Positions 30,601 to 55,285 of a DNA stretch of 64,000 nt are shown piece after piece (position 1 is the first letter of the stretch; the number at the start of each line of letters is the position of its first letter). A program made the translations under genes and the position numbers. Under the pieces are notes generated by a model. That model was not told the origin of the DNA. It worked only from the letters and a program-made list of their open reading frames with translations, and searched no databases. Source of the DNA: Hippopus hippopus (Eukaryota > Mollusca > Bivalvia > Cardiida > Cardiidae). The stretch is from the NCBI GenBank assembly GCA_946811185.2, contig OX328109.1, positions 12,808,255 to 12,872,254 on the forward strand, written 5' to 3'.

Positions 30601-33600
30601 TCAAGCTGTTAAGTCTTTTTGAGGCTTTAGAACAAAGAAAGATCAACAGTTTTCCTCATGGTTCCCCAATTCTTATCTGAATGCTTCCAAGATAATGATA
30701 CAACTTTAAATACAAATTTTTATTTCTGAGTATAGTCTATAAAACTGTTTGTCTTTCTCAGTTAAAAAATTATCTTAACCATTTTGCAAACAATTTCCAC
30801 TTAAAGTGACCCGAGAGAAAAGAGTATTATTTTGAGAATATTCTAAGTAAAAGAGAAAAGGAACTTATACCATTTTACCAGATTTTCTACCCTTCCAAAG
30901 ACCCATTTTACCATTTTAAAATGCATTTAGTTTGTCATCTGCAAATGCTTTCAAATTGAACAAGTTTGAATTTTTGTTGCCTAGTAAAGTGTTACAGCTA
31001 AGAGCAAAATAGTTTTTTTGTATTGTATTAAGGACCTTTTCAAAGCAATACACTACATAATTTTTTCAAGGATACTGTGTTCGCTTATTAAAACATGAAA
31101 GTGTTTAAAGATTTAATGGTTTTTGGAATAAAAGACCTATACAATGAGTTGCCTATTGTTGTAGACATTACTTATACCAAAAATCATTAAACCTATACCA
31201 AACAACTCCATGGTTTAACCCATTACCACACAATTCCAAGTTTTAGTGACCCCGATATGGAAGGTTTTTGAAAACATTGCGGGAAGAAAATGCTGGTCAA
31301 GTCGCATTTGATTGTGGTCTGGAAATACATTCAAGTAGGAGAAGTATAAAATTTTGTAATCTGGTAAAGGGTTTACAACCCTGAAGAAGAAAGCTTTTGA
31401 AAACATACTGAGAAAAGGATGGTGGTTACCTGCATTTTCTTCACCCACAAATGAGCCATGCTCTGTGAAAAGGGGGCTTAATGCATCTGCGAAAAGCATC
31501 GACTCCGGCCAGCCTGCGCAGTCCGCGCAGGCTGACCTGGGCCGAAACTTTTCGCTATTGGTCAATTTTCTGTATGTCCAAGGACCATTCTAACTTTGGA
31601 TTCAGTCATTTGTTAGAGGAAATAGATGTAATAGCTCCAAAATCATGTGATAACCTGCATGGTATGATGCATCACAGCGATGCATTAAGCCCCCTTTTGC
31701 AAGAGCATGGCTCAAATATTTTTACCCTTTTAAAAAGAAATCCCACCATTTCAGCCACAATCAAATTACCATCTGCAAATACTTTCAAAATGGACAGGTA
31801 TGAAAATTTAATTTGTTATCAGGTATATAGTTAAAAACAGAACAAACTTGCATAGCAGAAAAATATCTGTTATATCCTACCTTATATGCATCATCGCCTA
31901 CAACTTGAAGGTATTTCTTTTCTCTGTAAACATTCCTTGCTTTCAGAAAGTACAACACAAAAATATCACAGATAATGGTGGCCTGAAACCAAAGAGTTAA
32001 ATGTTAGACTTTACCGAACAATCTGGAGTTTTAACCACCCTAAGGAAGAAGGCTTTTGAAAACTTTGTGGAAAAAGGAAAAAATGCTGGTAACCAACATT
32101 TTCTCTTTTTCCTGTGATTGCTACACATCAAGAGATATTTCAGTTCTTCAGTCACATTTGTCAGCTGCAAATATTTAAGACTAACTCTTGTCCAAATTGA
32201 GTGAACTTGCAGATGACATATTAAATGTGGCTCAAACGCAAGATTTGTTTTCTAAAGAATAGAAAACGGGCCTCTTTCTCAAGGTCTTTAAAACTCCAGA
32301 TTGTTTAGCATGTTTGATATTTGGCTGGGAAAGCAGCCTGATGCTTACAAAGAATGTTGTACAAAGTACTGATATAGGAAACTCTAGGTAAGCATGGATA
32401 GTGCACTTGCCACTGTGTTACAACTGAAATAATGTTAACATTGTGTTAAATACCAAGCAAACAAACAAACAACAAACAAAGCAAATATGTGTCATTATGT
32501 TGTGAGCTAGAACACAGCTTTCTGTGTTTCAGATATGCGCATTCTCTTATCTAGGGCATCCACATAAATAAACCCACATGTACATAATCTAAAATGTCCC
32601 CTATGTGGTGACATATTTTGACACAAACTCCCTTCAAATTGCAATGCTTTGGTCCGTTTTCTTTAACCGAATAACAGAACTTTGGATTCATTCAAATCCA
32701 ATACATTTGCAGACAACAATTCAAATATGGCTTAAATGGTGGAAATTGTCTATGAAAAACTACAATACATTGTGGAAAAAGGAGAAAATACTGGTTGCAA
32801 GCATTTTCTCCTTTTCCCGCAACATTTCCAAAAGCCGTCTCTCTCAAGGTCATGAAAACTGCCAGTTGTTTGGTAAAGTTTGTTCAAGAAGGATAACTAA
32901 AGATACCTACAATTCCAAGAATGGCTAATCCACTTCCAAATTTGGTCATGAGAGGAACTATACGAAACTGTCCAGCCTGGCCTTGTAGCGTTATGATAAA
33001 CTTGATACCATAGGCTTTAAATAACGTTCTATACTCCTTACCATTTTCATATTTAAAATAATTAGCGTATCTGAAAGAAACAGTTACAAACAGTTACACT
33101 TCCTTAATTGAAAAACAAAAGGGATGAAGGAGTGGATTCAATTACTTATTTTAGACAAGGAATTGCTTTTTTCTTGTAATTTTTTCCATAATGTTAACTC
33201 TTTCACAACCAACACAACAAATTTGCCTTTTTTTAGGGCTAATGGTAGATTTCCACAGCCACTGAAGATGACCTATATCATAGTTTAATATCATGCAGCC
33301 GATGGTGAAAGTCCAAGAGCAAAGCTGTGTAAAAAATGTGAGAGTTACATGAACTTCTGCTCCAGGTTCTCCTTTGGAAAACTAACAACAAGCCAAAGTT
33401 TGACATAAATACCTTCATACATGCGAAACTGTCGAAGTTTTTTATTGACAACAACAATGCAGATGAAGACAGATGAGGAAAATACCTCAATATTTTCTTT
33501 TCATGCTTTACCAAACAATCCTTTTCCCACAATATTTTCAAAAGGCTTCTTTCATAGGGCCGTTAAAACTTGTCATTGTGTGTGGTAAATGGTTAACAAC

Positions 33601-36600
33601 CTTTCTGAAAATAGCTTAGAAAACATTATGTGGAAAGGGGAAAAGGCTAGTAACCAGCAGTTTCTCCTTTTCCCACAGTATTTTCTACCTATGAAAATGC
33701 CTTTGAAAACATTGTGGGAAAGGAAAAAATGCTGGCAAGTTTGTAACTAGCATTTTCTCCGTTTCCCGTAATGTCTTCTACCCTTTCCGGGACAAATTTA
33801 AAATATGAGTCAAATTTAATTGTCATCTGCAAATGATTTCAATTTGGAGAAGTTAAAATTTTGATGCCTGCTAAAGAGTTAAAACATAATAAAATGGAAG
33901 ACTTACCTGAAATTATAGCCTTTAGACAAAATATCTGCATCGCTATCCAGCCTTCTAAAACTGTACTTTGGGAGACATTTCTCTTCACTGTGATCAAGAT
34001 CGCAATCCCAGGTTATAATGATTTGTATAACTCCACCCTGTTTGGAAATAAAATGCTCACCCTTGAAACCTTATCACAACTTCAGTTTCCTTTCTAGCCA
34101 GTGTAGATCAAGATGAGACTGCACAAAATGTACAGTCTGATCTTTGATCTGCACTATCCGCTTTGCTGGGATATGCTGGACAAGACAAACTTGAAATTGC
34201 AATTGCATGTATTTGGGTCTTACTTCGATTGAAATGACAATTAAAAATATTATGCACTACAAGAATTACAAGTACCATGATCCAAAATTGTTTGAATGAT
34301 TTTCATGTCAATGTCATTATTATTTCAGTTATGTGATAATGGCAACTTAATTATTAAAGATACATCCTTACAGCTAGAGAGAAAAAATGCAATTAAAACT
34401 GGAAAGTTTGTAGAATGGCTCAGCTGTGCAAACATAGATAAATTACCAATACATATGGTGTAAGGGATAGAAAAACGCAAGGGGTTTGTCCTCTTCAAAA
34501 CCGTAAATGACAACAATGATTGCTTTGAAGGCCTCTAAAACATGAAATGCATTTTCTATCCGTTGTAATCTGTGCAATCTTGCGGCCATCAGGGGAAACA
34601 TTTGGAATGAAGATATAAGAATGGTTACATTTTCATAATATAAAAGATGAAATGGGTTAAAAACTGGCTGAAAACTGCGTGACAACAAGTATTGATGTAT
34701 CTTTAATAAGTAACCTGGGTTTTGACAGTACTATGCTATGGCTATGAAAAGTCTTTCATGAGGACACTTCCATGAAAAACTCAGCACCTTGAGTAAGGAT
34801 CTAACCTTGGACCTTGCAGGTTTAAAATCCTGCACCTTTAACACTGAGCCATACAGGACACCTCCATATTATATGAGCCATGCTCTGGCAAAAGGAGGCT
34901 TAATGCATCTTTGTGCAAGTCATCATATAACCATCCATAATATCCATTTTGTGTAACAACCGACTTAATCTAGAGGTAGACTGGTCTTTGGACATGCAGA
35001 AAATTGACCAAAAGCAGAAATTTTCGGCCTGTGCAGGCTGACCTAGGTAGATAATTTCTGCAGATGCACGTAGCTCCCTTTTCACACAGCATGGCTCGTA
35101 TATTTGACAATCCCTCTGTTTCTCTGTGGCTTGTATAATGCTTTACCAAAAAGGCCTGTGTTTAACAAGCTGGATAACCCTTTACCAGACGAAAAAAATT
35201 TTAACCTTGTCCAAACTGAAAGCATTTGCAGACAACAATTTCAATGTGGCTCAAATGGTGCAATTTTTCTTTGATAGGGTAGAAAACATTATGGGAAAAG
35301 GAGAAAATGCTGGTTACTATTATTCCTTTTCCCTTAATGTTTTCAAAAGGCTTCATTCCCAGGGTCCTTCGGATGAGTCTAAAATTTTTTTATCTAAAAT
35401 TCTAAAAGTTTGCGATCATGTCAAGAGTTGACTATTTACTACAATATACTGACTTTTAAGAACCCCGAGTTACAGGGCTTTTGAAACCATTGTGGGAAAA
35501 GAGGAAAATGTTGGTAAGCAGCAATTTTGCCTTTTCCCTCAATATTTTCTACCCTTTCTGGTATACATCTCATCATTTGAGCCACATTCATTGTCTGAAA
35601 AAGCTTTCACTTTAGACCAGTCTAAAATTTTATGGTCTGGTAAATGGTAAATCTGCACTGCTGTGATATATCCACTTTGGTTCCACTTAGGTAACTCTTG
35701 CAGTATTGTATTACATGTACTCCTTTAACAAACAGTCCCTAGTTTAACCCTTTACCACACAATCCCAAGTTTTAACGACCCTGGAGGAGAAGGCTTTTGA
35801 AAACACTGTGGGAATTGGAGAAAATGCTGGTAACCAGCATTTTCTCTTTTTCCCACAATGTTTTCTATCCTAAAAAAAGAAAGAAATCATCACTTGAGCT
35901 ATATTTAAAGTCTTGCCAGCAAATGCTTTCAATTTGGTCATGTCAAAAATTCTGTCATTTGGTAAAGAGTTAAACGACATTGAGAGAAAGACTTTTGAGA
36001 ACAATGTAGTAATCAGCAGTTTTTACATTTTCTTCAGTGTTTTCATCCCTTTTAAAATCAAATCCCATCCTTTGAGACATATCTAATTTGTCGTCTGCGA
36101 ATGCTTTCAAATTGGATGTAGCTAAAATATTGTCGTCTGGTAAAGGTTTCATCTACTGGGTATTGAACCTTAATGTTTTTTAATTCATTAACTGTATCAA
36201 ATTTTTCAGGACATGCAAATTTTTCAATTTAAAATCGGCCTTTTCTAGAATAAAAAGCAATAAACAGCAAACAAAAATTAATGATACACATAATTAAAGA
36301 AATCATTAACCCTTTACCACACAATCACAACTCTCAACAGCCCTGAGGATAAAGGCTTTTGAAACCTTATCAGAAAAGGAGACAAGAGGGCCATCACGGC
36401 CCTGAAGTCACTCACCTGAGCCTTTAGACCATACATGACCTATTTCCAATCTCTTCTGAGATATAATGACAAACATTCTGACAAACTGTCATTAGTATTG
36501 GACTTAAAATATGGCCTCTAGAGTATGCACAAGCCTTTTCTAGAATTTGTCTCAGTGACCTACTTTATAGCTCAACATTGCCTATTTTCAAACCTGTAGA

Positions 36601-39600
36601 AATTATCCAGACAAATGTTCTGACCACCTTTCATAAGTATTTGAAGGTTTTCAAAAATTAAACCTGGTGTCCGAGTTTTTGACCTGATGTGATCTATTTT
36701 CAATCTCATCCAAGATATCATCAAGACAAACATTTTGACCAATTTTCAAGAGTATTGTTCCGAAATGTGGCCTCTAAAGTGTACATAAGGTTTTTCTAAG
36801 ATCTGACCTAGTGACCTACTTTAGACCTGACATGACCCATTTTTATACTTGTCTAAGATATTATCAAGAAAATCATTCTGACCAACTTTTATGTGTATTG
36901 TATTGAAAATGTGGCGTCTAGAGCATACACAAGGTTTTTCAAAGACTTGACCTAGTAAGCTAGTTTTTGACCCGATGTGACCCAATTTAAAACTTGTCTA
37001 AAATATGAAGACAAACATTCTGACCAACTTTCAAGAATGTTGGACTGAAAATGTGGCCTTAGAGTGTACACAAGGTTCTTCTAAGATCTGACCTAGTTTT
37101 TGACCAAACATGACCCATTTTCTAGTTCGTCTGAGATATCATTAAGAAAAACATTCTGACCAATTTCATGAGTATTGGACTGAAAATGTGGTCTCTAGAG
37201 CGTACACAAGGTTTGTCGAAGATTTGACCTAGTAACCTATTTTTTGACCCAATGTGACTCATTTTTACATCCATCCAAGACATAATCAAGACAAACATAC
37301 TGACCAACTTTCATGAGTATTGGACTGAAAATGTGGCCTTTAGAGCGTATACAAGGTTTTTCTAAGATTTTATCTAGTGACCTAGTTTCTGACCCAACAT
37401 GACCAATTTCGAACTTGTCCCAGACATCATCAAGACAAACATCCTGACCAAGTTTCATGAGCATTGGACTGAATATGTGGCCTTTAGAGCGTACACAAGG
37501 TAAAAGTTGACAACAGACAACGCATGACAGACACAACATGATCACAAAAGCTCACCTTGAACACTTTGTGCTCAGGTGAGCTAAAAAGGCATGTAACCAG
37601 CATCTTTTCCTTTTCCCACAATGATTTCTGCCCTCCCAAGAACAAATTAATTTCAATTTTTGAGTCACATTTATTTTGTTGTCAGCAAATGCTTTCAATT
37701 TGGACAAGTCTTAAACTTTGTTGTTTGGTAAAGAGTTTAAGCCATGGATATAGATATGCACATCTATCTGTCTATCTAGCAACAAAGAAAATAATTCAAC
37801 TCTTTACCAAGCAATATAATTTCAATTGCATATGACAAACTAATGAATGGGGTTCAAATGAAGAGATTTGTCTACAAAAGGGTAGAAAACTATGTTGGTT
37901 GATTGGGGTTTAACACCACTTTAACAGCTAAGGTCATATCATGGCGGTCGGTGACGCACATGTGTTTCCTGGCTTTCTCACACCAGTACTAACACAACTT
38001 TCTTTCCAAAGCCACCGACTACTTTTCTCACATGCTTCAGCAGAGGTGAGAGGCGAAAATACGCCGGAAAGAAAGTTCGCCTCAACCGGGTATCGAACTC
38101 ACAACCACCACGTCATAAGACCGACACGCTCACCACTGAGCCACCCGGGCGGGGCAGAAAACTATGTGAGAAAGGAGAAAATAGTGCTTACCATCATCTT
38201 TTCCTTTTTCCATAACATTTCAAGAAGCTTCTCTCTCAGGGTCATTGAAACATGGTATTGTCTGATAAACAATTAACCCTGGAACCAGCTTCAGTTGTTT
38301 TTGTGGCAAGCGTAGATCAAGCTCAGAATGCACAGAACATGCAGTCTGATCTTGGTTCAACACTGTCAATTACATTTTTTTCAAATTCTAGCCAAAACAT
38401 CATTTAACTGGCAATATTCTTCATATTTCCACTTCTTGAAAAAGGTCTAATATGCCCTAAACATTATATTCAGGCAAATAATACAAAATGTACAAGAATC
38501 GGGCATTATAAATATTGCCTACATGACTTTATTTGGCATGGTTATATGTAGACAAGAGGATGGACATGCTTGTTTACACCATTGTATTTGCTAGGTACAT
38601 GTATATGAATATTATTCTGCTACCCAACCAATGACAATTCATTATTACGTTCAATATTATGTTCAAGAAAGTCATCTTCAAAATGGGTGTAAAAGCATAA
38701 AAACACTGGATAAACTGGTGATAGGACAATTGCATTTGGGAACTGCTAGGGAATCCTCCTAAGTTTACTCTATTGCATGCTTGTGCATGTATAGGATCCT
38801 GACCTGGTTACATGGCAACACAAATGATCATTCCATTGACCCTTAGTCAAGTTTTAACAACACTGAAGAAGATAGCATTTTAAAACATTGTGGATAAAGG
38901 AGAAAATGCTGGTAACCAGCATTTTCTCCTTTTCCCTCAATGTTTTCTTCCCTGCCTAGGACAGAAATCATCTTTGAGCTACATATAATTTGTCGTCTGC
39001 AAATACTTTCAATTTGTTTCGAGTCTGAAATTTTGTCATTTGGTGAAGAGTTTAAAATAAGCTTTTGAATCTTGGCTACTGCAAACCTTGCAGCATTTTC
39101 AAATAATTACCTTTATACTTAAACTAGAGAAATTTGTTACTCCACATTCGAATGCAATGTCCTTCAACACAAAAATGGGACAAAATTTATCTACTGGGTC
39201 ATCTTTGTTATACCTGCATCGACTCAGTTCCGTATCGTTTTTGAAGCCAAAAATACCCCTTCTGAAATGAATCATTAAGAATTTGGTGTCGTACAACCTT
39301 ATTTTCTCCTAAAAAAAAGTCTACTTTAAGTCTATATGTGTTTGAGCTTTTAGAATGTAAAAACCTGTCTTAGTAAACACCTATACTAAACAACAAAATT
39401 CTAAACATGTCCAAATTAAGAGCATTTGCTAACGGATTAACGGTAGATAAAGCTCAAAAATTAGGATTTGTCTTTGAAAGGGTTTAGAACATTATGGAAA
39501 AAGGAGAAAATGCTGGTCACCAGGATTTTTTTCCCCCCAAATGTTTTTGAAAGCTTTCTTCTGCGGGACCATGAAAACTTTGGATTGTTTGATAATGGGT

Positions 39601-42600
39601 TAAGCCACACACCTGTATTATGCAAGCAAATATTGAATTCCAAGAAGAGACAAATATATTGAAATGTACCTATATAGAGAATCTTACATGAGTGTTTACA
39701 TATTATCATTTTTATCAAACAAGTTGACTAAAATTGTATGACGAAGCCTTGGCGAGCGTCAAATACATTTTAGTCAACAAGTATGATGAAAATGATAATA
39801 CATAAACACGAATGTGAGATTCTATTTATCACATGAAACCAATGACAGACAAAAAATAGCATGCCTCATCACCTTTTGCCTATACACTGTCCACGGGTCC
39901 ATGTTTACAGTTGTATTTCCCTTTCAAATGTGTACATAGATTACACAAGTAGATAGCACCATGACATTTTCACCGAAAGTAGAATAAAACAGTTTCTATA
40001 GGGGAGTAAGTGCAACTAATTCAGCAATTTAGTTGCTTTTAAAAGCTCTTGCTGCATTTCTTAGTATTTATTAAACATGAAAATTAAAAAAAGTCCATGC
40101 GTATAAGCCTTAGCAACAATGACGTAATTTTTTCGTGAAACAGTGCAGTAGTACAAATTCTGGCACGTACTGTGGTTGGTTTCTCAAGCTCTCATGACTG
40201 AAAATCGATCTGAACTGGGACCCAAAAAATGGTAATACACTAGTGTATTATCAAAAATAATTCATGGGTTTAATACACTGCCAGGGGATGTTTTATGTGA
40301 TAAAGTAAGGAAGTACCTGTCTTAACCCTATACCAAACAATCCCAAGTTTTAAGGACTCCAAGAGGGTAAGGCTTTTGAAAATATAATGGGAAAAGGAGA
40401 AAATGCTAGTCACTACCATTTTCTCTTTTTCGCACAAGTTTTCAAAAGCCTTCTTCCTCAGTGTCGTTAAAACTTGGGATTGTCTGTTCTAAGTACATGT
40501 ATAATGTCCCTGAGGAAAAACTCTTTTGAAAACATACTGGTAACCAGCATTTTCTCCTTGTTCCCTAAATGTTTTCTTTTTGTCCAAAAACAAAATACCA
40601 TCATTTGAGATACAATGAATTGGCAGGTTGCAAACACTTTCAAGTTGGATCAGTCTAAAATGTTGTTGTTTGGAAAAGATTGAGACCCTTCCCAAGGAAT
40701 TCCAAGTGTGAAGGACTCCCATGAAAAAGACTTCTTTAAAACTCTGGATTGTGTGTTCTTTTAATGACCCTAAAGAAAAGTGTTTTTGAAAACATATAAG
40801 TGACTAGCATTTTCTCCTGAATTCCAAACTTTCTTCAAATACAAAAATACCATCATTCCAGATAAAATGAACTGGTAGGCTATAGATAAAGTCTTTCAAT
40901 TTGGATCAGTCTAAAATGTTATCATTTTTGGAAAAGGTTGATACCCTTACCAAGGAATCCCAAGTGGTTATGACTCCCATGAAGAAAGCTTTTGAACACT
41001 GATGGAAAGGGATACACTCTAGTAACCTACATTTTCCTTCTTTTCCAAAAATGTTTTTCTACACTCTTCTGAGATAAATTCCTTCACTAAGATAACTATA
41101 ATGTGCAAAATGAGGTTTGACCATTTACCACATAATCCCGAATTGTAATGACCCTGACAGAGAAGACTTTTGAAAACATAGTGAGAAAAGAAGAAAATGC
41201 TGGTAACCAGCATTTTCTTCTTTTCCCACAATGTTTTCTACCCTACCAAAGACAGAAATCATCATTTTAGCAATATATAATTTATCGTCTGCAAATGCTT
41301 TCAATTTGGTTCAGTCTAAAACTTTGTCGTTTGGTAAAGAGTTAATGAGTACAATATACAAGTAAAAGTTAAATAAGCTAGAAGCAATGATGCTCACCAA
41401 AATCCTGAAAAAGGTGATTTGTCTTCTCTTTTTCTACCCTTTACCAAAGGAAAAATGTTGAAACTTTTCCAAATTCAAAGGTATTGTAGGCCAGAAATGA
41501 AGTGTGATTCAATTGAGAACTTTTTCTTTTAAAACTCTTTACCAAACTACAAAATTTTAGACTTGTCCAAGTTAAAAGCATTCGCAGACGACATATCAAA
41601 TTTGGCTAAAAAAGTTGCAATGTCAGTGAAAGTGTAGAAGACCTTGTGGGAAAAGGACAAAATGTTGGTTACCAGCATTTTCTCCTTTTCCCACAAGGTT
41701 TTCAAAAGGCTATTACCCCAGGGTCCTTGAAACTTGGGATTGTGTGGTAAAGGGTTAAAACAGTAGAAAACATTGTAAGAAAAGAATAAAATACTGATTA
41801 TCAGCACTTTCATTTTTTCTTACAATGTTTTTTACCCTTTATCTTAGGTTCATCAAAACACAGGATTGTATGGTAAAGGGTTATACAGCTTTATCTGTAT
41901 TATGGTAAAATGTTCCTGAGACTAAATTTTGTATATTGATAAAACTATGGCAAATCTAAGGTGCTTCTTTTTTCAGGTTATTGTGAAACTTAATCCTTTA
42001 CCAAACAATCCCTGGTTTATATGACTCCGAGATAGAAGCCTTTTGAAAACATTGTAGGGAGAGGAGAAAATGCTGATAACCAGCATTTTCTCCTTTTCCC
42101 GTAATGTTTTCTACGCTGCTTGAAACAAATTTTAATTTTTGACCTATGTTTATTTTGTCATCTGCAAGTGCTTTCAATTTGAACCAGTCTAAAATCTTGT
42201 CCTTTGGTAAAGAGTTAAAGAAATAAATCGCCATTTTCAGAATATGTGATCCTTTACTAAACAATCTTGTGTATTAACATATCTGATGAAAAAAGGCTCA
42301 TCAAAAGATCATGGTAATAGGAGAAAATGCTGGTAACCAAAACATTTTTCACTACCCTTATCAAGACAAATTTTTTCATTCAAGCCACATAAATTCACTT
42401 TATGGTCTGCAAATGATTTCAACTTTGAAAGGTCAAAAATTTTGTTGTTTAATAAGGTTTAAATAACCACAGTGGCATCATGCACCATTTCAGATATTTT
42501 TTGTAGATAATGTAGACTAAGATCAGACTATAAAATCTGGTTCAACAATGACCAATATTCTGCGAGACATTCTGTCAAAAACAGCCTATCCATGTCTTTT

Positions 42601-45600
42601 TTACTTGATGAAAATGTACCAACTTGGCACTGCAATGATTGAAAGCATTGTAGAAATGCTGCGTACCAGCATTTTATCCTTTCTCCACAATGTTTTCAAA
42701 AGCTTTCTTCCACAGGGTCATGCAAACATAGGTAATGGGTTAAAGTTTGAATACACAGAAATGGAATAAGAAGTCTAAAACTACTTAAGGCCAGACTACA
42801 ACACTACCTCCACCTCATAATTATGATACCTGTCTAGCTATACTGCTAAAATTGCTGGAGCCTGCCCCTGCAACAATGGTCTTCAGTTCCATGATTGGAC
42901 ATTGGTCATTTGCACCAAAGTCAAAGCGGCAGCTTTTCAAATAGGATTCGTTTACGAAAGAAGGAACATTGCGTCTGTAAGCATAGGGGAAGATCAATTC
43001 TACAATCTAAGCCTTTACCAAACAATCCCATGTTTTAAGGAACATGAGGAAGAAGCATACTGATAACACTGTGAGAAAAGAAGACAATGCTGGTTATCAG
43101 TATCTTCTTCTTTTCAAACAATTTCTTCTACCCTGTCAAAGAATTTCAGTTCATTTGTGCCAATTTCAATTGTGTTGTCTTCAGATGCTATTATAAGAAA
43201 CTATGTTTTTGTACAATTTCTCCATTTTCAAAATTTTCATGACTTGTTCATTTTTTCTGAAAATGATTCAGTCCTTTCTTCAAATCTTATTTCTCACTTC
43301 AAAAATCAGTTAAACAAATCTTTTATTTATTGCAAGATGAAAGCTTTTGTAGATGACTAGTTCATTTGGTTCGAAAGATAGAAATTGCTTTTAGAAAGGT
43401 ACAAAACATTCAGGGAAAAGGCGTTAAGGCTGGTAACATGCATTCTCCCCTTTCTTTCAAAAGCCTTTTTTCTTGGTCGTTTGGCAAAGGGTTTAGAATA
43501 AGAAAATTAAAGTTGTTTTTTGGTAATGAACCCACTGTATGTAAAATTACTATCTTAACTAGAAATCTATGTCAGGACATTCTGGACTATTCCTTTTGAC
43601 TGAGAGGTTCTGTCATTAGCCAGTACCAATCTTGTTTTTTTTTTAGGCCCTGAAGAAGGGTTTATGGGAAAATGAGATAATGCCAGTTACAAGTATTTGC
43701 TCCTTTTCTTGCAACATTTTCTACCCTATCAATGAACTTCAACAAACTTATATGAATTTTGAATTTGTCATCTGCAAATGTTTACAGTTTGGAGGAGCCT
43801 TAAATGTGTTTAGGAAAAGGGTAAACTTTTAATGACAAAATTTAGACTTGTCCAAATTGAAAGCTTTTGAAGACAATGAATAAAAAATTGGTCATATTAC
43901 CATGAGATATGTCTTTGATATGGCAAAAAAGCATTGTGGGAAAAGGAAAATACCAGCACTTTCTCCTTTTCCCACAATGTTTTCAAATGCCTTTCTCCAA
44001 GGATGACATTTAAATGACAAGATTGTGTGGTATAGGATTAAGAGGAGGTACGTGTATGAACATAATCCAGATATAAAGATCTACCCCTAGGGCAAGGTTT
44101 CATAAAGTTCCATAGATTGTAGTGAGTTGTGGATTGTATTTTTTCTCTGAATTCTAGAAATGATAAAACAGTGTATAAGAACTCAACCCTTTGCCAAACA
44201 ATCTGTACTTTTAAACCAGAGGGCGATGATGGCCCTGTATTGCTCCACTGGCTAATATGTACAAACCCTACATGCAAAACATTACAATACTTGGCCAATT
44301 GGTTTCGAACTTGAGGACATACACATTTTTCTCTATAAAATCCCACCAGAAAGTAATGACCCCAGGGCAAAGCCATTTTTGACCACAGAGCTATAATTAC
44401 TTGAATCCTGGTAGAGGTCCACAAGATAAAGCCCCATACAAAACAATACAGGTCTAGAATGTGTGGTTGTAAGCAAGAAGATTTTCAAAGTTTCCTAAAT
44501 AAAAGACCCTGTCAAACATGACCCCCCTGAGACAGGGCTAAATTTAGTAGCCCTAGGTCTTATGGTAAGTAACAAGAAGATTTAAAAACTTTTCAGCATT
44601 TAAGCCATCTAAAATTTGTGACCCCCAGGGCTGGGCCAACTTTGACCCCAGGGCTGTAACTTGAGCCTATTAGATAAAGCTATATGCCAACTTTGGTAGC
44701 CCTGGGCCTTATGGTTTCAGACAAGAAGATTTTCAAAGATTTTCAATATTTTTCAGTTTTGTTACCATGGCAACTAGAGTTTTTGAAGGAATCAAATTCT
44801 TTCAAAAAATTCTGAAGAGGACCATGGCAGGATCATTTCTGTGAAGATTCATAAAAATTTGATGGGTAGTATTAGAGAAGAAGATGTTTGAAATAAATGT
44901 TAATGCATGCACGGACAGACAGAAGAACAGAGGCAGGCGGACACTGGGCTATGACATAAGCCCGCTGGCCTTTGGCCAGTGAAGCTTAAAACCTGAGAAA
45001 GTCGTCTTTTGAAATATTGTGGGAAAAGAAATAATTAACCAGCATTTTCTCCTTTTTCCACAATGTTTTCTAACCTTCCCAAAACATATTTTAATTTTTC
45101 CACCACATTTATTATGTTGTCTGCACATGCTTTCAAGTTGGACTAGCCTAAAATGTAGAAGTTTGGTTAAGGTTTTCTATCCTGCCCAAAACAAATTTCA
45201 ATTTTTCAGGCACATTTATTTTGTCGTCTATCAGTCTCAAATTTAGTTGTTTGGTACAGCTTTAAAACTCTTACCTTTTCACGCCAAACTTTGGAAACTC
45301 GATGTTGTTTTTGATAAATACGGTGAAATTTTCTGCTTCTGCAATGGCAGCAGGGTCAGGCCTAAAAGAAAAAAAGGGAAAAGATCCAATTTCTCAAGGA
45401 AAAATAAAATCTATGTCTCAAAGAGGTCTTAATCACTCCAGGATAAATACATTTCCGATACATGATACATGACATAATACACTTTTAGTAACCTATAGCA
45501 CATCAACTAATTTCTGAAATAGAAAGTATAGAAGAACAGTCTCTGTTTAATTACGTAAACTGTTTACTGTCAAAAAAAAACCCACAAGGTAAAATCAATA

Positions 45601-48600
45601 GAATTACAGTCAATACAGCAGGCTTCTCACACTCAACCACTTACCACATAATCCCAAGTTGTTACGACCCTTGAGGAGAAAGCTTTTGAAAACATTGTTG
45701 GAAAAGGACAAAATGCTGCTAACCAGCATTTTGTCCTTTTTCAACAATCTTTTCTAACCTATCACAAACAAAATCCATATTAAAGTCACATTTCATCTGT
45801 CTTTTGACAGCATTTTCAATTTTGACACTTGTAAAACGTTGTCATTTGGTAAAGACTTAAAGCATTTGCAGAAGATATACTAAACATATTTTCATGTAGG
45901 TCTTGTCTCTACATTGCTGGCATAGGAGAAAATGCTGGTTACCACCATTTTCTCTTTTGCCCACAATGTTTTTTAACCCTTTACCAGACAACACAATTTC
46001 AGCCTAATCCAAATTGAAAGCATTTGCAGACGACAATTTCAGTGGGGCTCAAATGATGCAATTTTTCTTTAACAGGGTAGAAAACATTGTGGGAAAAGGA
46101 GAAAATGCTAGTTACCAGCATTTTCTCCTTTTCCCACAATGTTTTCAGGGTCGTTAAAAGTCGGCATTGCGTGGTAAAGGGTTAAAGACCTTGTCTCTGA
46201 GGGTTGTAAAAACATGGAATCCTTTAGTAAAGGAGAAACCCTTAAACTGCTAAATAAGTAAAATAGAACTTTCAAGCCCTCAATAAAAATTCAAGTTTTG
46301 CTATTCCAAAATTATCTTTAAGAGGAAATATATCTCCTTATCGGACAGTGTAGATCCAAGATCAGACTGCATGTTCTGTGCAGTCTGATCTTGATCTACA
46401 CTGTCCACAGAAGGTCCTTGAATTGTGTTCAGTAGCCCAGGGGTTAAGAGCAGGTCAGTTAATTTACTCACGGTTTCAAGCTGCCGTCCTCTGTTGGACA
46501 CCAAGCATGTATTTCGCAACTCTTCTTTCCTGGATATCTGGTAGAGTTGATACAATTTCCAGTCATAAATCCTGCAAAACATATGATTATATTTTGAAAC
46601 ATAAGTGTTTACTGCAAAACATAAGTGGTTGTTGAAAAAAAAAAGCATCTATTTCATAAAAAAAAAAGTCTTTACTGCTATACAGTAGTGTTTACTGCAA
46701 AAAAATGAATTGTTTGTTGCAAAACCTGGGGTTTATTCACTTGAAATAAAAGTTAATTGCAAAACATAAGAGTTTATTGCAAGACATAAGTGTCTACTGC
46801 AACATATTGGTCTTTACTGCAAAACATAAGTGTGTACTCTAAAACGTAAGTTGTGACTACAAAACACAAGTATTTAATGCGTAAGAGACTTCATAACTTA
46901 CAATATTTGTTACTCATGCAATATTCCTAATTTTTGAAATTGTAAACATGCCATAAAAACTCACAACTTGACTTCTACAACATAGGGGAAAATTGGCTAA
47001 GTGTTCTACTAATGCATCTTTTTTTATATTGATTAAAAAAAAAAGATTTAGTAAATATTTATGGTTACAATTATTGATTGGTTGAGAGTTACTTAAGGCT
47101 TTTTTCAACATTATTCAGTTATATCACCATGATGGCTCACTTATACCTCTGAAATATTTATGTCTGTTCCAGAGTCAAGCCCTCTACCAAATGGTCCTGA
47201 GTTTTAACTACACTTTTTCACTTTCCTCGGTGTTCTTTTACTAAAGGTTTAATTGCAGTATAACCCTTTTCCACACAATCCCAAGTTTCAATGACCTTGA
47301 ACAAGAAGCCTTTTGAGAACATTGTGGTAAAAGGAGAAAATGCTGTTAACAGTTCTCCTTTTTCTACAATTTTTTCTACCCTTTCAGAGACAAATTTCAT
47401 AATTTAAGAATTTGTTGTCTGCAAAAGCTTTCAATTCCAGTGAGTCTAAAATTTTGTCGTTTAGTAAAAAGATAGCTATCGCTGACACTGACGTTGCATA
47501 CATACCATCTCCTGTTAAGAATGGCTGCCCCTTCACACAGATACTTTCATCATCAGTACAGTCGGCCCCAGGAACGCCAATATCCTGTAACACAAGAGAA
47601 TCACAATGATCCTAACCACCTCCAACACAAACACCACTTCTTGTTTCCCTGCAGTAAGCAGCTTTTGAAGAAAAAAAAGGGAAAAGAAGCAACTACTTGT
47701 TACTGCTCCATTTCCCACAATTTTTTCCAAACGATTTATATAAAGCGTTTCCCTCAAAAGTGTTCACTTTCATATCACTTGATGTGTCAGGGCTTAACCT
47801 ATTTTACTGGAATAAGATTGAATAGTGAAGGGTTAACCCTTTACCACACAATGACAACTTTTAACGACCCTGGGAAAGAAGTTTTTTGAAAACATTGTGG
47901 GAAAAGGAGAAAATGCTGGTAGCCTTTTCCTTCTCCTTTTCCCACAATGTTTTCTACACTATCAAAGAAAAATTGCACCATTTGAGCCACACTGAAATTG
48001 TCGTCTGCAAATGCTTTCAATTTGGACAAGGCTAAAATTTTGTTGTCTGGTAAATTTTCTTTTGATAGCAGAAAGCTACTTAGGCATCCTTCCAAATACA
48101 GTATACCATTTTACTTTTTACTATACAACAAAAGTTTGGACTGAACAAAATTGAAGTCATTTTCAGACAACAAATTTGATGTGACCCAAATGGTGGTTTA
48201 TGTCTTTTACAGGGTAGAAAACATTGTGAGAAAAGGAGATAATACTGGTTACCAGTATTTCTCCTTTTCCCACAATATTTCCAAAAGGCCTCTTTCTCAG
48301 AGTCGTTAGAACTCGAGATTGTGTGGTAAAGGGTTAAAGGGAGTTATTGATATTTTCATAATCTCACCAAACTTAAAAAAATGATTTATCCACGAACATA
48401 GTAGGGTAATTATAGGTGACAAATCATCAGTATGGCAGAAAGAAATAAGAAATGGCACATTACAGGCAATTTACAGACCACAAAAATTATATGATGCAAA
48501 TTTGTCCTTAATTCTTTTTCAAACCAATAGATTTTAAACTAGTTAAAAGCGTTCAAGACCAAAAATTACATGTGGCGCAAATGGTGAAATTTGTCTTTGA

Positions 48601-51600
48601 CAGGGTAGAAAACATTTTGCGAAAATGAGAAAATGCTGGTTACCAGCATTTTCCCCTTTTTCCCCAAAATGTTTTCAAAAACCATCTCTGTTAGGGTCAT
48701 CAGAACTAGGGATTGTGCGGTAAAGGGTTAATATGAAAGAAAACACTGATGTTGAGAATTTTCTTCTGTTCCAAAAGTGCCATTTATCCCTTTTTTTCTA
48801 CACTGTTTCAAAACTTTTCTTCCTCAGGGCTTTTAAACAAGGGGCCATGATGGCCATGTGTCGCTCAAATCATACACACTAAACATCACAATTCTAGGCC
48901 AAATGGTTTCGAACAAGAAGACCTATAAAAGCCCATGTGAAACTTTGGATCCAAGGAAGAGTCCATGTTTTACTTATAATTGCAACTTTGACCTATAATA
49001 ATGAGCAATAATTACTTGAATCCTGGTAGAGGTCAACAAGGTAAGGTTACATACTAAATAATACAGGTCTAGGGCGTATGGTTATACACAAGATTTTCAA
49101 TGTTTCCCCAATAAAAACATGAGAGGTCAGGCTTATTTCCATTCAAGGGCTAAATTTTGAACAAAATCAGAAGAAATCCACTAGATGAGGCTATGTGCCA
49201 AATTTGGTAGCCCTAGGCCTTATGTTTAGGAAGAACAAGATATTCAAAATTTTCAGGATAAAAGCCCATGCAGCTTGTGACCCCCAGGACAGGGTGAAGC
49301 TACATCCCTTTTTGGTAGCCCTAGTATATATGGTTCAGAACCAGAAGATTTTTAAAGTATTCACTATATAAACCCATGTAAAACTTGTGACCCGGAGGCA
49401 GGGCCAATTTTGACCCCAGGGCTATAATTTGAAGAAATCCAGTAGAAGTCCATTAGATGAAGCTACATGCAAAGTTTGGTAGCTCTATGCTATATGGTTA
49501 TGGACAAGAAGATTTTCAAACATTTCAAATATTTTTCAGTTTTGTTGCCATGGCAACCAGAATTTTTACTGGAATTAAATTCTTTCAAGAATTTCTAAAG
49601 AGGGCCATGGCAGGATAATTTCTTTGAAGTTCAGTCAAAATTGGACAGGTAGTTTCAGAGAAGAAGATTTTTGAAATAAAAGTTAACACACACCTGCACA
49701 GATGCACACATAGACGCACCCAAGCACGGATGCACGACGGACACAGGCCAGTGGAGCTAAAAACATTGGATTGTTTTGTATAAAGTAATACACGTAGGTG
49801 GGAAAGGGGCAAGTTGCTTGGAAAGGGTTGGCAGTAGATATTGTAGGAGTACACGGATAAATGCTCTGGATGCTGTGATATGGCTGAACTAAAGTTGAAA
49901 ACAGTGATAACAGCCAAAGCAAACAAAACAAAAACATCAGAAAGTGGTTCAATTATTGGGATGGTCCATTCTGTAGGAAAAGACACTTACCTCTTCACAA
50001 AAACCAAGGCTTTGTTGCTCTGTTATGATTAGATTGGTGATGACAAAGAATGCATTGTTTTCCTACAAAATAAAACAGACAGAGAAGTAACTATTGTGTT
50101 TCACATCCTGTTTTCTATTCTGTTTTTCACTGGCATTCACAAACAAAGCTATATAAAGCCATTACTAAACAGTCTTGTTTCACATTTTTCTGGTTTTTTT
50201 TTTCAAAAGCATTCACACAAAAAGCTACATAAAGTCTTTACCAAACAATCTTATGTTTTAATGACCAAGAGGAAGAGGGCTTTTGAAAACAATGTGGAAA
50301 AAGGAGAAAATGCTGGAAACCAGCATTTTCTCCTTTTCCCACAATGTTTTCTACTCTATGAAAGACAAACTTCATGTTACATCTAATTTGACATCTGCAA
50401 ATCTTTTCAATTTGTACAAGTCTAAAATTTTGTCATTTAGTAAAGAGTTAAATTTTACTAAAACAATCCTGTGTTTTAACGACATTGAGGAAGAGGGCTT
50501 TTGGAACCATTGTGGAAAAAGAAGAAAATGCTAGTAACCAGCATTTTCATCTTTTCCCACATTTTTTTTTTATACTTTTTCTAAAACAAATCCCATCATT
50601 TGAGTCACCATTAATCCCATTAATTTGTTGTCTTCAGTTGGTTCCAGCTTGTACTGGTCTAAAATTTTCTCTTCCCTTTTGTTAAGGAATGAAGAGAATT
50701 TTTTTTTTTCATACCTCCATGAAAACAAAGAAATTCTCTTCATTCCTTATAATTCAGTATCACAGACAACAAATATGCACATAAATAATACTAACTACTT
50801 TTTTTTTGTAAATCAAATATTGAAGTCTCTAATGCCAATTTCATTGGTATTACACAGCGAGGAAAAAAATCATGACATCATCATAGCACTGAATACTGTA
50901 GATCAATGGTGGTAGACTTAGTACTAGAAGTTCAATAAAATGGAAACAAGTTGAAGATTAGATAATTTGTACCCAGTAAACTGAAAATCAGTTTTAAGTT
51001 CTCTCTGACACTCTATGGATTTAATGATAAATCAGATATGTTTTTCATTAATGATATCCAGGGAAACTAAACTTAGCTGGCATTTGAACTTCGGACTCTG
51101 AATAAAATTAGAAAAGAAAAACAATATGAAATCTCAAAGATCTATATATGAGGGTTGTTCGATATGTAATGTGTATTGTACGATATCTCAAAAGCATTCG
51201 ACTCAAATAGTGAAATGAACATTACATCCCTTCAAAGTATTCTCTGCGGTTTGAAATACATAATTTCAATCTCTGAATCCATTTCTAAAATGCGTCACGG
51301 TATGCTGATTTAGGCTTGTCGGGACTTGTAACGACGACCAGATAAGAACTTTTTAAGTTTTGGAAAAAGGAAAAAATCGCATGGGGCTAGATCTGGAGAG
51401 TATGGTGGGTGTGGCAAGACGGTAACCTTCTCCGACTTCAAAAATTGCTTCCCAAGCTCAGATGTATGTGATGGAGCATTATCATGAAGTAGACGAACAT
51501 GCCTAAATCCTGACACAGGGCGCCGTTTAAGATAATATTTCTTGAGCTTTTTTAGTATAACATCTCGGTAATACCCACCTGTAACAATTTTGCCCTTCGG

Positions 51601-54600
51601 CACCGGAATTTGTACGGCTATACCATCACATGAGAAGAATATGCAATAAAGAACCTTCTTTGTGCTTGTGCTTCTTTTGGCAACTACAGGCCTTCTACCG
51701 TGTTTAGTTAGCCATATTTTTTTTCCCAATTTTTCTTACTGGTTTGAAATAGTGAACCCATGTTTTGTCACCAGTAACAATGTTTGCAAATTGTCTTTGA
51801 TTGAATTTGGGAAACATTTTGAGCAATTGCTTAGCGGTTTGTACTCGTACCCGTTTTTGGTCATCTCTCAATATATGAGGTATCCATCTGGCAGAAATCT
51901 TTCGTACTTTCAAAATACGCTTCAAAATAAAATGCACCCGTGATAGCGATATGCCAACAGCGTTGGTAATATCACAAATCGTGTATCTGCCATCACTTTC
52001 AATTATTTCCGACTTTTGAGACATTTGCCTTGCCTGTTAAAGTCACAGGTCGGCCAGATTTTGCTGCATTTTTGACAGACTCTGTGCCAGTCAGAAATTT
52101 CTTTCTCCAACTACGAACTGTCTCATAAGATACCTTATCAGACCCATAAACTTCCCCAATTCAGTAAAAATCTGCATTACCGAATGACCGAGTTTTGTGC
52201 GAACTTTTATATAAGCTCTAATTTCTTCAATATTCTTAATCCGTTTCCCAACCATTTTTACAACAGTGGTCAACGACTAGCTCTATTGAAATGACTATAA
52301 GTTTAAAACTATGTGGAGCTGAAGGCTCGTGTTTATACCGTTGGAAAGCGTATCATCATCCACGAAATCATGCAAAGCGTTATCGTGCTGTGGTACAATA
52401 CACATTACATATCGAACAGCCCTCGTATATGCTTGTCTACATGTATTGACAGCAAAAGTAGTTCCCACACTGCATGATTTTTTTTCATGGAGCTATAAAA
52501 AATTTTTTTCAGCCAATTAGAACTCCCACTGATGAAAACAACAAATATTGAATTATTTCTATACAAATGCTATGGACATTCTCAGTCAGTACCAGAGATG
52601 CAGATATTGCAATTTCAAAACTATTTTTGGTCAGAATATTTGGCAAAGAAGTGGACAGTGTTGATCCATTCAAACTGTCCATGTTGCCTGGACATTCCAG
52701 GTCAAAGCAAGTTTGAAATGGTAGTGATATGGGATTTATTTTCAGACTGAAAACATTTGTTGGATTGATTTAGTATGCTAAGGGTTATGGTGGCTTTTTT
52801 AGTTCTTTTACACTCTCACCAAATTTCAGGAACGATTTTTCACTAAATTATAGAAGGTGCTAGCAGGCAAACCATCAGTAAAGATGTCGGAAAAAATATT
52901 TTCAGTAGTTCTCCTTAATGGGCTATGTAGCATCTCACCTCTTTACCAAACTACAAAATTTTTTAATGCAATTGCAGATGAAAAATTGAGTGTAGAAAAC
53001 AGTAGAAAAACAAGGGAATACTGGTCCCCAGCATTTTCTCCTTTTCCCACAATGTTTTTAAATGCCTTCTTCTTCAGGTTCGTTTAAACACCAACCTGTT
53101 ACTTGAGTGCTAAATTTGCATGCGCTTTTTTACTGCATCTAACCATCTAGTCTTTTAATGTTTGCAGAGAAAAGTAAACGTAGTCCTTATCAGTGTTTAA
53201 CTCTTTACCAAACGACAAAATTATAGACTGGTCCAAATTGAAAGCATTTCCAGACGACAAATAAATGTGACTGAAAAATTGCAATTTGGTTTGGGAAGGG
53301 TAGAAAACATTGTGGGAAAAGGAGAAAATGCTGGTTACCAGCATTTTCTCCTTTTCCCATAATGTTTTCAAAAGGCACCTTCCTCAGGGTCGTTAAAAGT
53401 CGGGATTGTGTGGTAAAGAGTTAACACAAAAATTTCATTCAAAGCAAAAAATCTGAAAAGGCTACTTTGATATCTATGTTCTAAACTGTATCAAAATAGA
53501 ACAGTCAGTATGCTGTGTACAAATCTTGTGCCTTTTTTCAGACAGTGTGGCACAGGAAAAGCCTCCTGTTGCACAAAACCTTTTCAATTTTCAAGCTGTT
53601 TCCCATATTTATCAAAAGGCAAGGCCAATAAGCTCTTTTTAATTTGTCACTGGTAACAGGTGTTGACTATATTATAAGTAGCTCTGGATCAAAGATGGAC
53701 ACAAAATTACATCAAAACTAGAATTGTCCGAGACTGACAAATACCTCCCACTGGTTGCCTTGTCACTGGATCTTGAATCCCAATTAACCTTCATTACACA
53801 ATCCCAAGTTTTAACAACCCTAAGAAAGAGACTTTTTAAAAACATTGTAGGGAAAAGGAGAAAATGCTTGAAACCAGCATTTTCTCCTTTTTTCCCCGCA
53901 ATGTTTTCTACCATTTCAGAGAAAAATCAAGTCATTTGAACAACATTAACTTTGTCATTGGGAAATTCTTTCGAATCGGACAAGTCTAAAATCATGTCAT
54001 TTGTATAGAGCTAAAAGGGCAAGAACTCTTGTAACAGTCGACCAATCATAATGAAAACTTGCAGGTGCACAAGTTTCTTTGGTAGGAAGGATTCCATTAA
54101 AATTTCAGCCAAAACTGAAGGATGTTGACACTTTCACCATCAATGATAACTTGGATAGCTTTTGTGGACAGTGAAGATCAAAATAAGACTGCACAGAACT
54201 TGCAGTCTGATCTTGGATTTAAAGCTATTTGCTACCTAATACTAAAATATGACAATATTAGTCTTCAATAGCAGTGAAAATCTACCATTAGAACTTGGAA
54301 AAAAAGTGAAATTTCTGAAGTTGGTAGTGAAAGACTTAATTGATTGACTGTAAAATGTTTTACACCACTTTCAACATTGTTTCTGTCATATTTTAGTAAA
54401 AGCCCACCTTTTCATGTGTTTCCTTGGTGTCACCATATATACTATATCTTTCAAAGGCTAAGGCACAAGGTTTTTGAAAAAAGACAAATAGTAAGAAAAT
54501 GAAAAATGCTGGTAACCAAAATTTGCTCCTTGTCAAACAATGTCTTCTACCTTTCAAAGACAAGTCCAATTATTTCAACCTCATCTGATTTGTTATCTGC

Positions 54601-54815: not shown

Positions 54816-54885
54816 CTGAAAACAAAGCAAACCTACAATCTGTAACATAAAGTAAAAGCTAGGTTCTATATTCAACAAGTGTCAT

Positions 54886-55285
54886 TTGATGTAAGCTTGC
54901 AGGTCACAAGTCTTTGTACATTGTCAAATTCTTGGTACACCTTTTGATATAATGGCATACCTGAAAACAAAGAAAAACTACATCCTATCAAACAAGGTAA
55001 AGCTACATTCTTTTTTTCAAGAACTTGTTTTTGATGTAAGCTTGCAGGTCACACCCCCATGTACACTGTCAAACTCCTGGTACCCCTTCTGATATAACAA
55101 GTTCTCATATATATAATGGCATATATGAAAACAAAGCAAAGCTACAACCAAAATTTAACTAAATTCTACTTGTTCTGACCACACCCCTTTGTTTGGTGGT
55201 CACACCTACTGGGAACAATGTCAAAGTCCTGGTGCCCCAGCTCTGATATATAAGGGTGTAACAGGAGACAAACTAAAACTGCTAT
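54886..55285 (-). pseudogene. Three decayed tandem copies of P2X exon 2
   Basis: Three imperfect copies of the exon 2 start and its acceptor flank sit upstream of the real exon: about 54886-54976, 55030-55143 and 55170-55285. The first keeps the GAAAACAAAG acceptor flank, CATACCTG, and the CTGGTAC/TTTGATAT core of the exon, but its 3-prime part is replaced. The second has an insertion (AACAAGTTCTCATAT) and a damaged acceptor. The third is the most diverged. All lack an intact donor half, so they are unlikely to be used. Spacing of about 130-145 bp suggests local tandem duplication of exon plus flank, followed by decay. Confidence 0.7.

Follow-up and report, generated by a model that had tools for sequence, protein, structure and literature searches.

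A putative pair of mutually exclusive dorsal-fin exons in a P2X4-like gene of Hippopus hippopus and other molluscs

Can a single P2X gene supply two different ATP-gated channels by exchanging one exon? The window, a stretch of 64,000 nucleotides of Hippopus hippopus DNA, carries a P2X4-like gene on its minus strand with two versions of exon 7, termed 7a and 7b. Ten exons were placed, all bounded by GT-AG.

54662..54815, minus strand: exon 2, end of TM1 and start of the ectodomain
49991..50062, minus strand: exon 3
47506..47584, minus strand: exon 4, cysteine-rich head
46472..46571, minus strand: exon 5, cysteine-rich head
45275..45361, minus strand: exon 6, with NFTVFIKNN (ATP-contact strand) and a terminal AG of an Arg codon that 7a or 7b completes
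42830..42974, minus strand: exon 7a, an a-type dorsal-fin exon of 145 nt (RNVPSFVNESYLKSC...SIARQ), clustering with bivalve and gastropod exons of the a type
39262..42829, minus strand: intron between 7a and 7b, 3568 nt
39111..39261, minus strand: exon 7b, a b-type dorsal-fin exon of 151 nt (RGIFGFKNDTELSRC...LSIK), clustering with bivalve, gastropod and cephalopod exons of the b type
33907..34037, minus strand: exon 8 (GGVIQ...YNFR), the 3' partner shared by both versions of exon 7
32911..33070, minus strand: fused exon 9/10 (YANYF...KAYGIKF...), reaching the start of TM2
31881..31982, minus strand: exon 11, completing TM2 and entering the C-terminal tail

Exons 5 to 8 match P2X chains of solved structures (P2X receptor, PF00864) with a best E value of 5.2e-40 when 7a is used and 2.5e-37 when 7b is used. 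NFTVFIKNN is present in exon 6 and NFR ends exon 8, and alignment places TM2 in exons 9/10 and 11. Exon 1, encoding most of TM1, and the last exon were sought in the window, including by tblastn with clam P2X proteins, and were not found there. Partial copies of exon 2 lie within the same gene (76 to 94% DNA identity over the aligned parts). These are young and dead, being truncated and broken, and were rejected as additional alternative exons: two of the three aligned copies are gapped and the third runs into a stop.

The homology of 7a and 7b, put at about 17 of 48 residues in the first-pass annotation, is borne out: 18 of 48 residues are identical (38% protein identity), and the alignment score of 73 compares with a shuffle mean of -22.9 (sd 9.2) and was reached in 0 of 5000 shuffles. 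The splice phases of the two exons are identical: each supplies one initial base to finish the Arg codon begun in exon 6, and each ends in phase 0. The coordinates, lengths (145 and 151), phases, good splice sites and conserved cysteines previously given for the pair all match the gene model. Inclusion of both exons or of neither had been said to break the frame, and either case gives an early stop: after 17 codons of 7b when 7a and 7b are joined, and seven codons past the junction Arg codon, in the shifted exon 8 frame, when both are skipped. Exclusion by too short an intron is unlikely, as the 7a-7b intron is 3568 nt long. G at donor position +5 is absent from both alternative exons versus one of eight constitutive exons; the U1 consensus match of the 7a and 7b donors (6 and 7 of 9, versus 5 to 9 of 9 elsewhere) is not weaker overall.

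The same pair was found when P2X genes of other bivalves were searched, and is represented across molluscs by isoform pairs in seven species and by five tandem gene models. Each of the seven species has two listed proteins that lie on contigs of equal size and differ in exon 7. The difference is confined to exon 7 in six of them (Mya, Dreissena, Pecten, Argopecten, Mytilus edulis and Elysia crispata), and the Mizuhopecten pair differs in exon 7 plus the C terminus. These same-gene pairs, for which a shared contig is inferred from equal contig sizes, make up 7 of 12 other-species comparisons; no same-gene pair was obtained in the other five, namely, Candidula, Biomphalaria, Patella (two species), Nucella (different contigs) and Sinanodonta (P0009/P0012). 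The isoforms compared are mostly gene predictions, and the five models of other species that hold a and then b in tandem are taken as mispredictions. Among the matches listed (the best 120 of 820 and the best 120 of 1497), many species show a single type: b in Octopus, Argonauta, Solemya and Pinctada, and a in Crassostrea virginica, Ostrea and Saccostrea echinata. A region search with P0035 (284-356, chosen by eye as the presumed exon 7b) returned five proteins and added nothing.

The exon 7 set comprises 68 of 140 listed proteins (55 mollusc and 13 other); P0133 and P0137 were not extracted by the pattern. In a tree of the 55 mollusc rows, 27 a and 28 b exons part once, with support of 99/99, and bivalves and gastropods occur on either side. 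The rows were drawn from 72 extracted segments after exclusion of 13 outgroup rows and of P0034, P0067, P0072 and P0135. The a and b labels derive from the exon-start motif (human P2X4 205-206), with P0053 and P0076 labeled by hand, and the tree is independent of them. The same division was found in six genes whose exons were labeled by position in the gene only: the best other-species match was at the same position for 12 of 12 exons, and the true labeling ranked 1 of 32. Scored against window 7a and 7b only, the gastropod a exons P0025, P0056, P0057, P0063 and P0076 are nearer 7b. Rooting of the a/b duplication with 13 non-mollusc rows (49 columns, bootstrap unsettled) yielded no firm root and is compatible with an origin before or within molluscs. 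As the pair occurs in both bivalves and sea snails, a single gene has probably provided these animals with two distinct ATP sensors from early mollusc history onward.

The isoform pairs, the tandem models and the single a/b split strongly support the original proposal of mutually exclusive exons in the P2X dorsal-fin region. As far as sequence can tell, 7a and 7b are very probably ancient, tandem-duplicated, mutually exclusive exons of a P2X4-like gene that gives two ATP-gated channels. After exon 6, the spliceosome would take one of the two versions, 7a or 7b, and continue with exon 8, and transcripts with both or neither exon 7 would meet an early stop and be removed or give no channel. The two resulting subunits would differ only in a stretch of 48 or 50 residues comprising the dorsal fin and the segment that connects it to the lower body. 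This part of the ATP jaw contacts ribose and adenine and is driven upward upon ATP binding. Both exons are presumably used in this clam, and their use may differ by tissue or stage. The two channels may differ in ATP sensitivity or gating, as first suggested, and the swap could tune ATP potency, kinetics or subunit mixing.

The residues of the swapped segment bear on whether the exchange matters for function. The segment had been described as the dorsal fin; it does lie in that region but extends further, over what we take to be residues 203 to 249 of human P2X4, in our own numbering of the human sequence. Human L214 and I229 correspond to zebrafish L217 and I232, described as ATP contacts in the relevant part of an earlier report (PMC3874471). 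Among the mollusc segments, a exons have Leu at the L214 equivalent in 24 of 27 cases and Ile at the I229 equivalent in 23 of 27, b exons have these residues in 26 of 28 and 28 of 28 cases, respectively, and the two disulfide cysteines (C217 and C227 equivalents) are present in 55 of 55; both window exons have all of these residues. The predicted structures of the a and b forms of Mya have the P2X fold, with an identical order of helices and strands across exon 7. Mutually exclusive splicing could be real and the swap functionally near neutral, the pair serving expression control. This possibility is compatible with the exon pair proposed here, but we consider it rather doubtful, because several positions keep type-specific residues in bivalves and gastropods alike, a pattern that would not be expected from drift between equivalent exons. 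The two types differ consistently at positions adjoining the disulfide and the ATP contacts. At position 206, the a/b contrast involves some circularity, the labels being drawn from the 205-206 motif.

Two other features had been put forward as functional marks, an extra cysteine and a changed sequon pattern, and neither is retained as such. The cysteine is real in window 7b but occurs in 1 of 55 mollusc exon 7 segments. The sequon pattern is unchanged, N-x-S/T sequons occupying the same two aligned columns in 7a (NES and NFS) and 7b (NDT and NFS).

It is very unlikely that 7b is a relic, i.e., a duplicated exon that is open by chance and is no longer spliced in or acts only as a poison exon. 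Such a fate might be suspected from the gain of the cysteine, from Gly in window 7b where the other 54 exon 7 segments keep Asn (human N204), from an end branch in the 55-row tree that is longer than that of 7a (0.57 and 0.44, respectively; median, 0.31) and from the dead partial copies of exon 2 in the same gene. However, those copies are young and already broken, whereas 7b, with 38% protein identity to 7a, has kept an open frame and splice sites. Furthermore, b-type exons are conserved at least as much as a-type exons across the species compared (a common set of 36 species pairs gave mean identities of 0.44 for 7a, 0.50 for 7b and 0.65 for the exon 8 segment), and window 7b is typical of them, its mean identity to 11 other b exons being 0.50 and the own means of those exons 0.43 to 0.52. 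The nearest row to window 7b within the b side is the sea slug Elysia rather than a clam, and species order is thus not recovered by the tree on that side.

A division of 7a and 7b between two P2X genes that are nested or overlap is scarcely credible: Candidula, Biomphalaria and Sinanodonta (P0009/P0012) do have more than one P2X protein, inexplicable by a swap in one gene, but tblastn with clam P2X proteins (mostly nearly whole; N-terminal queries from P0003, P0006 and P0007) gave a single match in the window, at an E value of 0.01 or better, for every placed exon apart from 2 and 7, exon 2 having the copies described above, and both types lie on equal-sized contigs in the seven other species, with the remaining sequence identical save for the Mizuhopecten C terminus.

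With 7a and 7b as mutually exclusive exons of one gene, we lean, on balance, toward a splice switch in the P2X ATP jaw that has been kept since before the bivalve/gastropod split and that would provide a-channels, b-channels and mixed trimers with different ATP responses. If so, it would be for molluscs what the P2X gene families are for vertebrates, and the dorsal-fin swaps would be an evolutionarily curated set for testing how this element links ATP binding with pore opening. P2X subtypes are usually compared across genes, with everything differing at once; a/b pairs would offer subunits that differ solely in the dorsal fin and lower-body link, replicated in several species. Even in a small number of species, recordings from such pairs would give a direct readout of the share of this element in ATP potency and gating. 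The pair also bears on whether molluscs control purinergic signaling via splicing.

Vertebrate P2X4 (human 9bqh and zebrafish 4dw1) resembles the clam gene in the sequence of exons 5 to 8, in the retained ATP contacts and disulfide and in its fold, which is that of the predicted Mya a and b structures. To our knowledge, vertebrate P2X4 has a single exon 7 only, and vertebrate P2X receptors diversified by gene duplication instead. Tandem-duplicated, mutually exclusive exons are reported for the oyster alternative oxidase (PMC5589949) and for human genes (PMC9741552 and PMC5740500). In the sections of those reports drawn on here, homologous adjoining exons of one gene are used singly, as proposed for the clam P2X gene; unlike in those cases, the swapped segment in the clam belongs to the jaw with which an ATP-gated channel binds its agonist.

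The first-pass annotation was aware of no such exon pair in a described P2X gene. This holds for a conserved pair, judging from the relevant sections of two earlier reports, but splice forms have been reported in Lymnaea (PMC3510196) and Aplysia (PMC7943599), and both fit, and would be explained by, an a/b swap of exon 7. In Lymnaea stagnalis, the cloned LymP2X and the assembled contig FX193730 differ over 150 nt (50 amino acids) and were assigned by the authors to one gene (PMC3510196). Exon 7 of the Lymnaea protein examined here is b-type, with 50 residues, and the 150-nt alternative region is presumably exon 7. Unlike the present reading, the relevant section of that paper gives the difference one sentence, locates it in the head domain and describes no duplicated exon pair or its spread (PMC3510196). 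In Aplysia californica, one gene gave two cloned forms, AcP2X and AcP2Xb, that are 92% identical and differ over 147 bases, and each produced ATP currents in oocytes (PMC7943599). The passages concerned term the variation a deletion/insertion and do not identify it as mutually exclusive dorsal-fin exons. The Aplysia protein examined here is b-type, with a 49-residue exon 7, and the second Aplysia form is presumably a-type.

The putative alternative exons 7 of the P2X4-like gene lie where the first-pass annotation had placed them:

42830-42974, minus strand, exon 7a (145 nt)
39111-39261, minus strand, exon 7b (151 nt)

Ten exons were placed, running from exon 2 (54815) to exon 11 (31881), with consistent phases and GT-AG sites; a search of the window for exon 1 and the last exon did not find them. 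In a sequence search, exons 5 to 8 match solved P2X receptors, whichever exon 7 is included. The proposed homology of 7a and 7b holds, with 18 of 48 residues identical and an alignment score reached by none of 5000 shuffles. Translation also bears out the proposed frame break: joining both exons puts a stop 17 codons into 7b, and skipping both leads to a stop seven codons past the junction Arg codon. Regulated choice of one exon 7 is likely, as is removal of the frame-breaking products that contain both exons or neither. The intron separating 7a from 7b is 3568 nt long, which argues against exclusion by intron size. Both are GT-AG exons, and their donors, like one of the eight others, lack G at +5. 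Matches to the U1 consensus are 6 and 7 of 9 for these donors and 5 to 9 for the others; they are not weaker by total match, which leaves little case for weak, regulated donors.

The same pair is present in other bivalves, where the first-pass annotation proposed a search for it, and also in gastropods. Searches with the predicted proteins containing 7a (isoform a) and 7b (isoform b) returned 820 and 1497 proteins, respectively, and the best 120 of each were listed; among the named proteins in these lists, the nearest relatives were Ruditapes (69%, isoform a) and Mercenaria (69%, isoform b). The window is therefore probably that of a heterodont clam, and the lists held no protein nearly identical to its own. 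Seven of 12 other-species comparisons yielded same-gene pairs, and the remaining five gave none. Protein pairs whose contigs are equal in length differ solely at exon 7 in Mya, Dreissena, Pecten, Argopecten, Mytilus edulis, and Elysia crispata, and at exon 7 plus the C terminus in Mizuhopecten. Gene models of Sinanodonta, Mytilus coruscus, Batillaria, Mya, and Saccostrea cucullata contain both exons, a then b. Isoform pairs and tandem models together give 11 species with both types besides the one studied here; most isoforms from these other species are predicted gene products. Two proteins, P0011 (409 amino acids, 1260-nt contig, b-type) and P0060 (430 amino acids, 1483-nt contig, nearer a), probably represent spliced transcripts, because their contigs are too short for introns. 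Several taxa have a single exon type among the matches listed, which may reflect the lists.

Two analyses address the origin of the pair. When exons of six genes (the window's and five others) were labeled by gene position alone, the best other-species match lay at the same position for 12 of 12 exons, and the true labeling had the top score among 32. In a tree of 55 mollusc exon 7 segments (49 columns), picked from named proteins and built independently of the a/b labels, which denote a motif at the exon start, one branch parted 27 a from 28 b segments (support, 99/99; recovered in 100% of 200 bootstraps). Each side holds both bivalves and gastropods, the chiton Liolophura falls with a, and two cephalopods fall with b. 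Resolution inside each side is low with 49 columns, and window 7b adjoins Elysia, not a clam. By plain similarity to the window's two exons, a poorer guide than the tree, five gastropod a exons are nearer 7b. Rooting with 13 outgroups did not resolve the position of the root. From these sequence comparisons, we conclude that the a/b duplication is older than the bivalve-gastropod split.

Over the same 36 species pairs, identity averages 0.44 in a segments, 0.50 in b segments, and 0.65 in one segment of exon 8. Window 7b averages 0.50 identity against 11 other b exons (their own means, 0.43 to 0.52). Counted against constraint on 7b are its long end branch in the 55-segment tree (0.57, versus 0.44 for 7a and a median of 0.31), a Gly where the other 54 segments have Asn, and a third Cys. 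What an unused duplicate looks like is shown in the same gene by the following:

54816-55260, minus strand, three tandem copies, incomplete and broken, of the 5' portion of exon 2, directly upstream of intact exon 2, period about 145

These copies share 76 to 94% DNA identity over the aligned parts and are truncated; two are gapped, and one runs into a stop. Further elements were recorded in the window:

51313-52036, minus strand, mariner-like transposase remains within the exon 2-3 intron
41193, 42066, and 39506 (examples), whole window, palindromic GAAAATGCTGGTnACCAGCATTTTC element, 45 matches with up to 4 substitutions, counted with no chance control
3-688 and 36674-37501, two tandem arrays far apart in the window, built of similar units of 144-145 nt, the second in the 7b-8 intron

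Within the transposase remains, 51313-51735 matches DDE_3 and Transposase_1 (Pfam); 51707-52036 has no Pfam match, and its attribution and the name mariner were assigned by eye. The GAAAATGCTGGTnACCAGCATTTTC element, with six of its 45 matches inside the 7a-7b intron, looks like a miniature inverted-repeat element.

Exon 7 corresponds to residues 203 to 249 in human P2X4 numbering, taking in L214, C217, C227, and I229. By offset, these four are zebrafish L217, C220, C230, and I232. According to PMC3874471, L217 touches the ribose and I232 the adenine of ATP, the C220-C230 bond makes the dorsal fin rigid, and ATP binding moves the dorsal fin up, which in turn pushes the lower body outward. Leu occupies position 214 in 24/27 a and 26/28 b segments and Ile position 229 in 23/27 and 28/28, and both Cys (217 and 227) are kept in 55/55. 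The consistent a/b differences adjoin the ATP contacts and the disulfide. Position 213, beside the ribose contact, is Tyr/Phe in 26/27 a and Glu/Gln/Met/Ala in 25/28 b segments; Arg218 is found in 28/28 b and 14/27 a; and position 234 is Thr/Ser in 26/27 a and Asp in 24/28 b. Pro206 occurs in 25/27 a and 0/28 b, a difference that is partly circular, as it lies inside the labeling motif. AlphaFold monomer models of both Mya forms have an equal strand/helix order through exon 7 (block pLDDT there, 79 to 95), and their top structural matches are P2X4 structures, a likeness of fold only. We infer that the swap may alter the coupling of ATP to gating by the jaw.

Among the matches listed in the open-licence literature, titles and abstract openings describe no conserved mutually exclusive dorsal-fin exon pair in P2X, and the available portions of PMC3853471 and PMC9329894 hold nothing on such a pair. 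Two molluscan reports are close. In Lymnaea, LymP2X and contig FX193730 differ over a 150-nt (50-amino-acid) region, for which PMC3510196 suggests an alternative exon and which it places in the head domain. We take this region to be exon 7, because exon 7 of the Lymnaea protein examined is b-type and exactly 50 residues long. In Aplysia, two cloned P2X forms are 92% identical with a 147-base deletion/insertion, and the second gives similar but much smaller, unstable currents (PMC7943599). The Aplysia protein examined is of the b type, its exon 7 being 49 residues long. The 92% identity fits exon replacement, because a and b forms are identical at 406/434 columns in Elysia and 369/399 in Mya.

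More than one divergent P2X protein was also observed within species: Candidula P0133/P0135 (210/399 columns identical), Biomphalaria P0073/P0094 (272/453), and Sinanodonta P0009/P0012 (335/494). This suggests P2X gene duplication in land snails, pond snails, and a unionid, in contrast to the single gene described by the Lymnaea and Aplysia papers.
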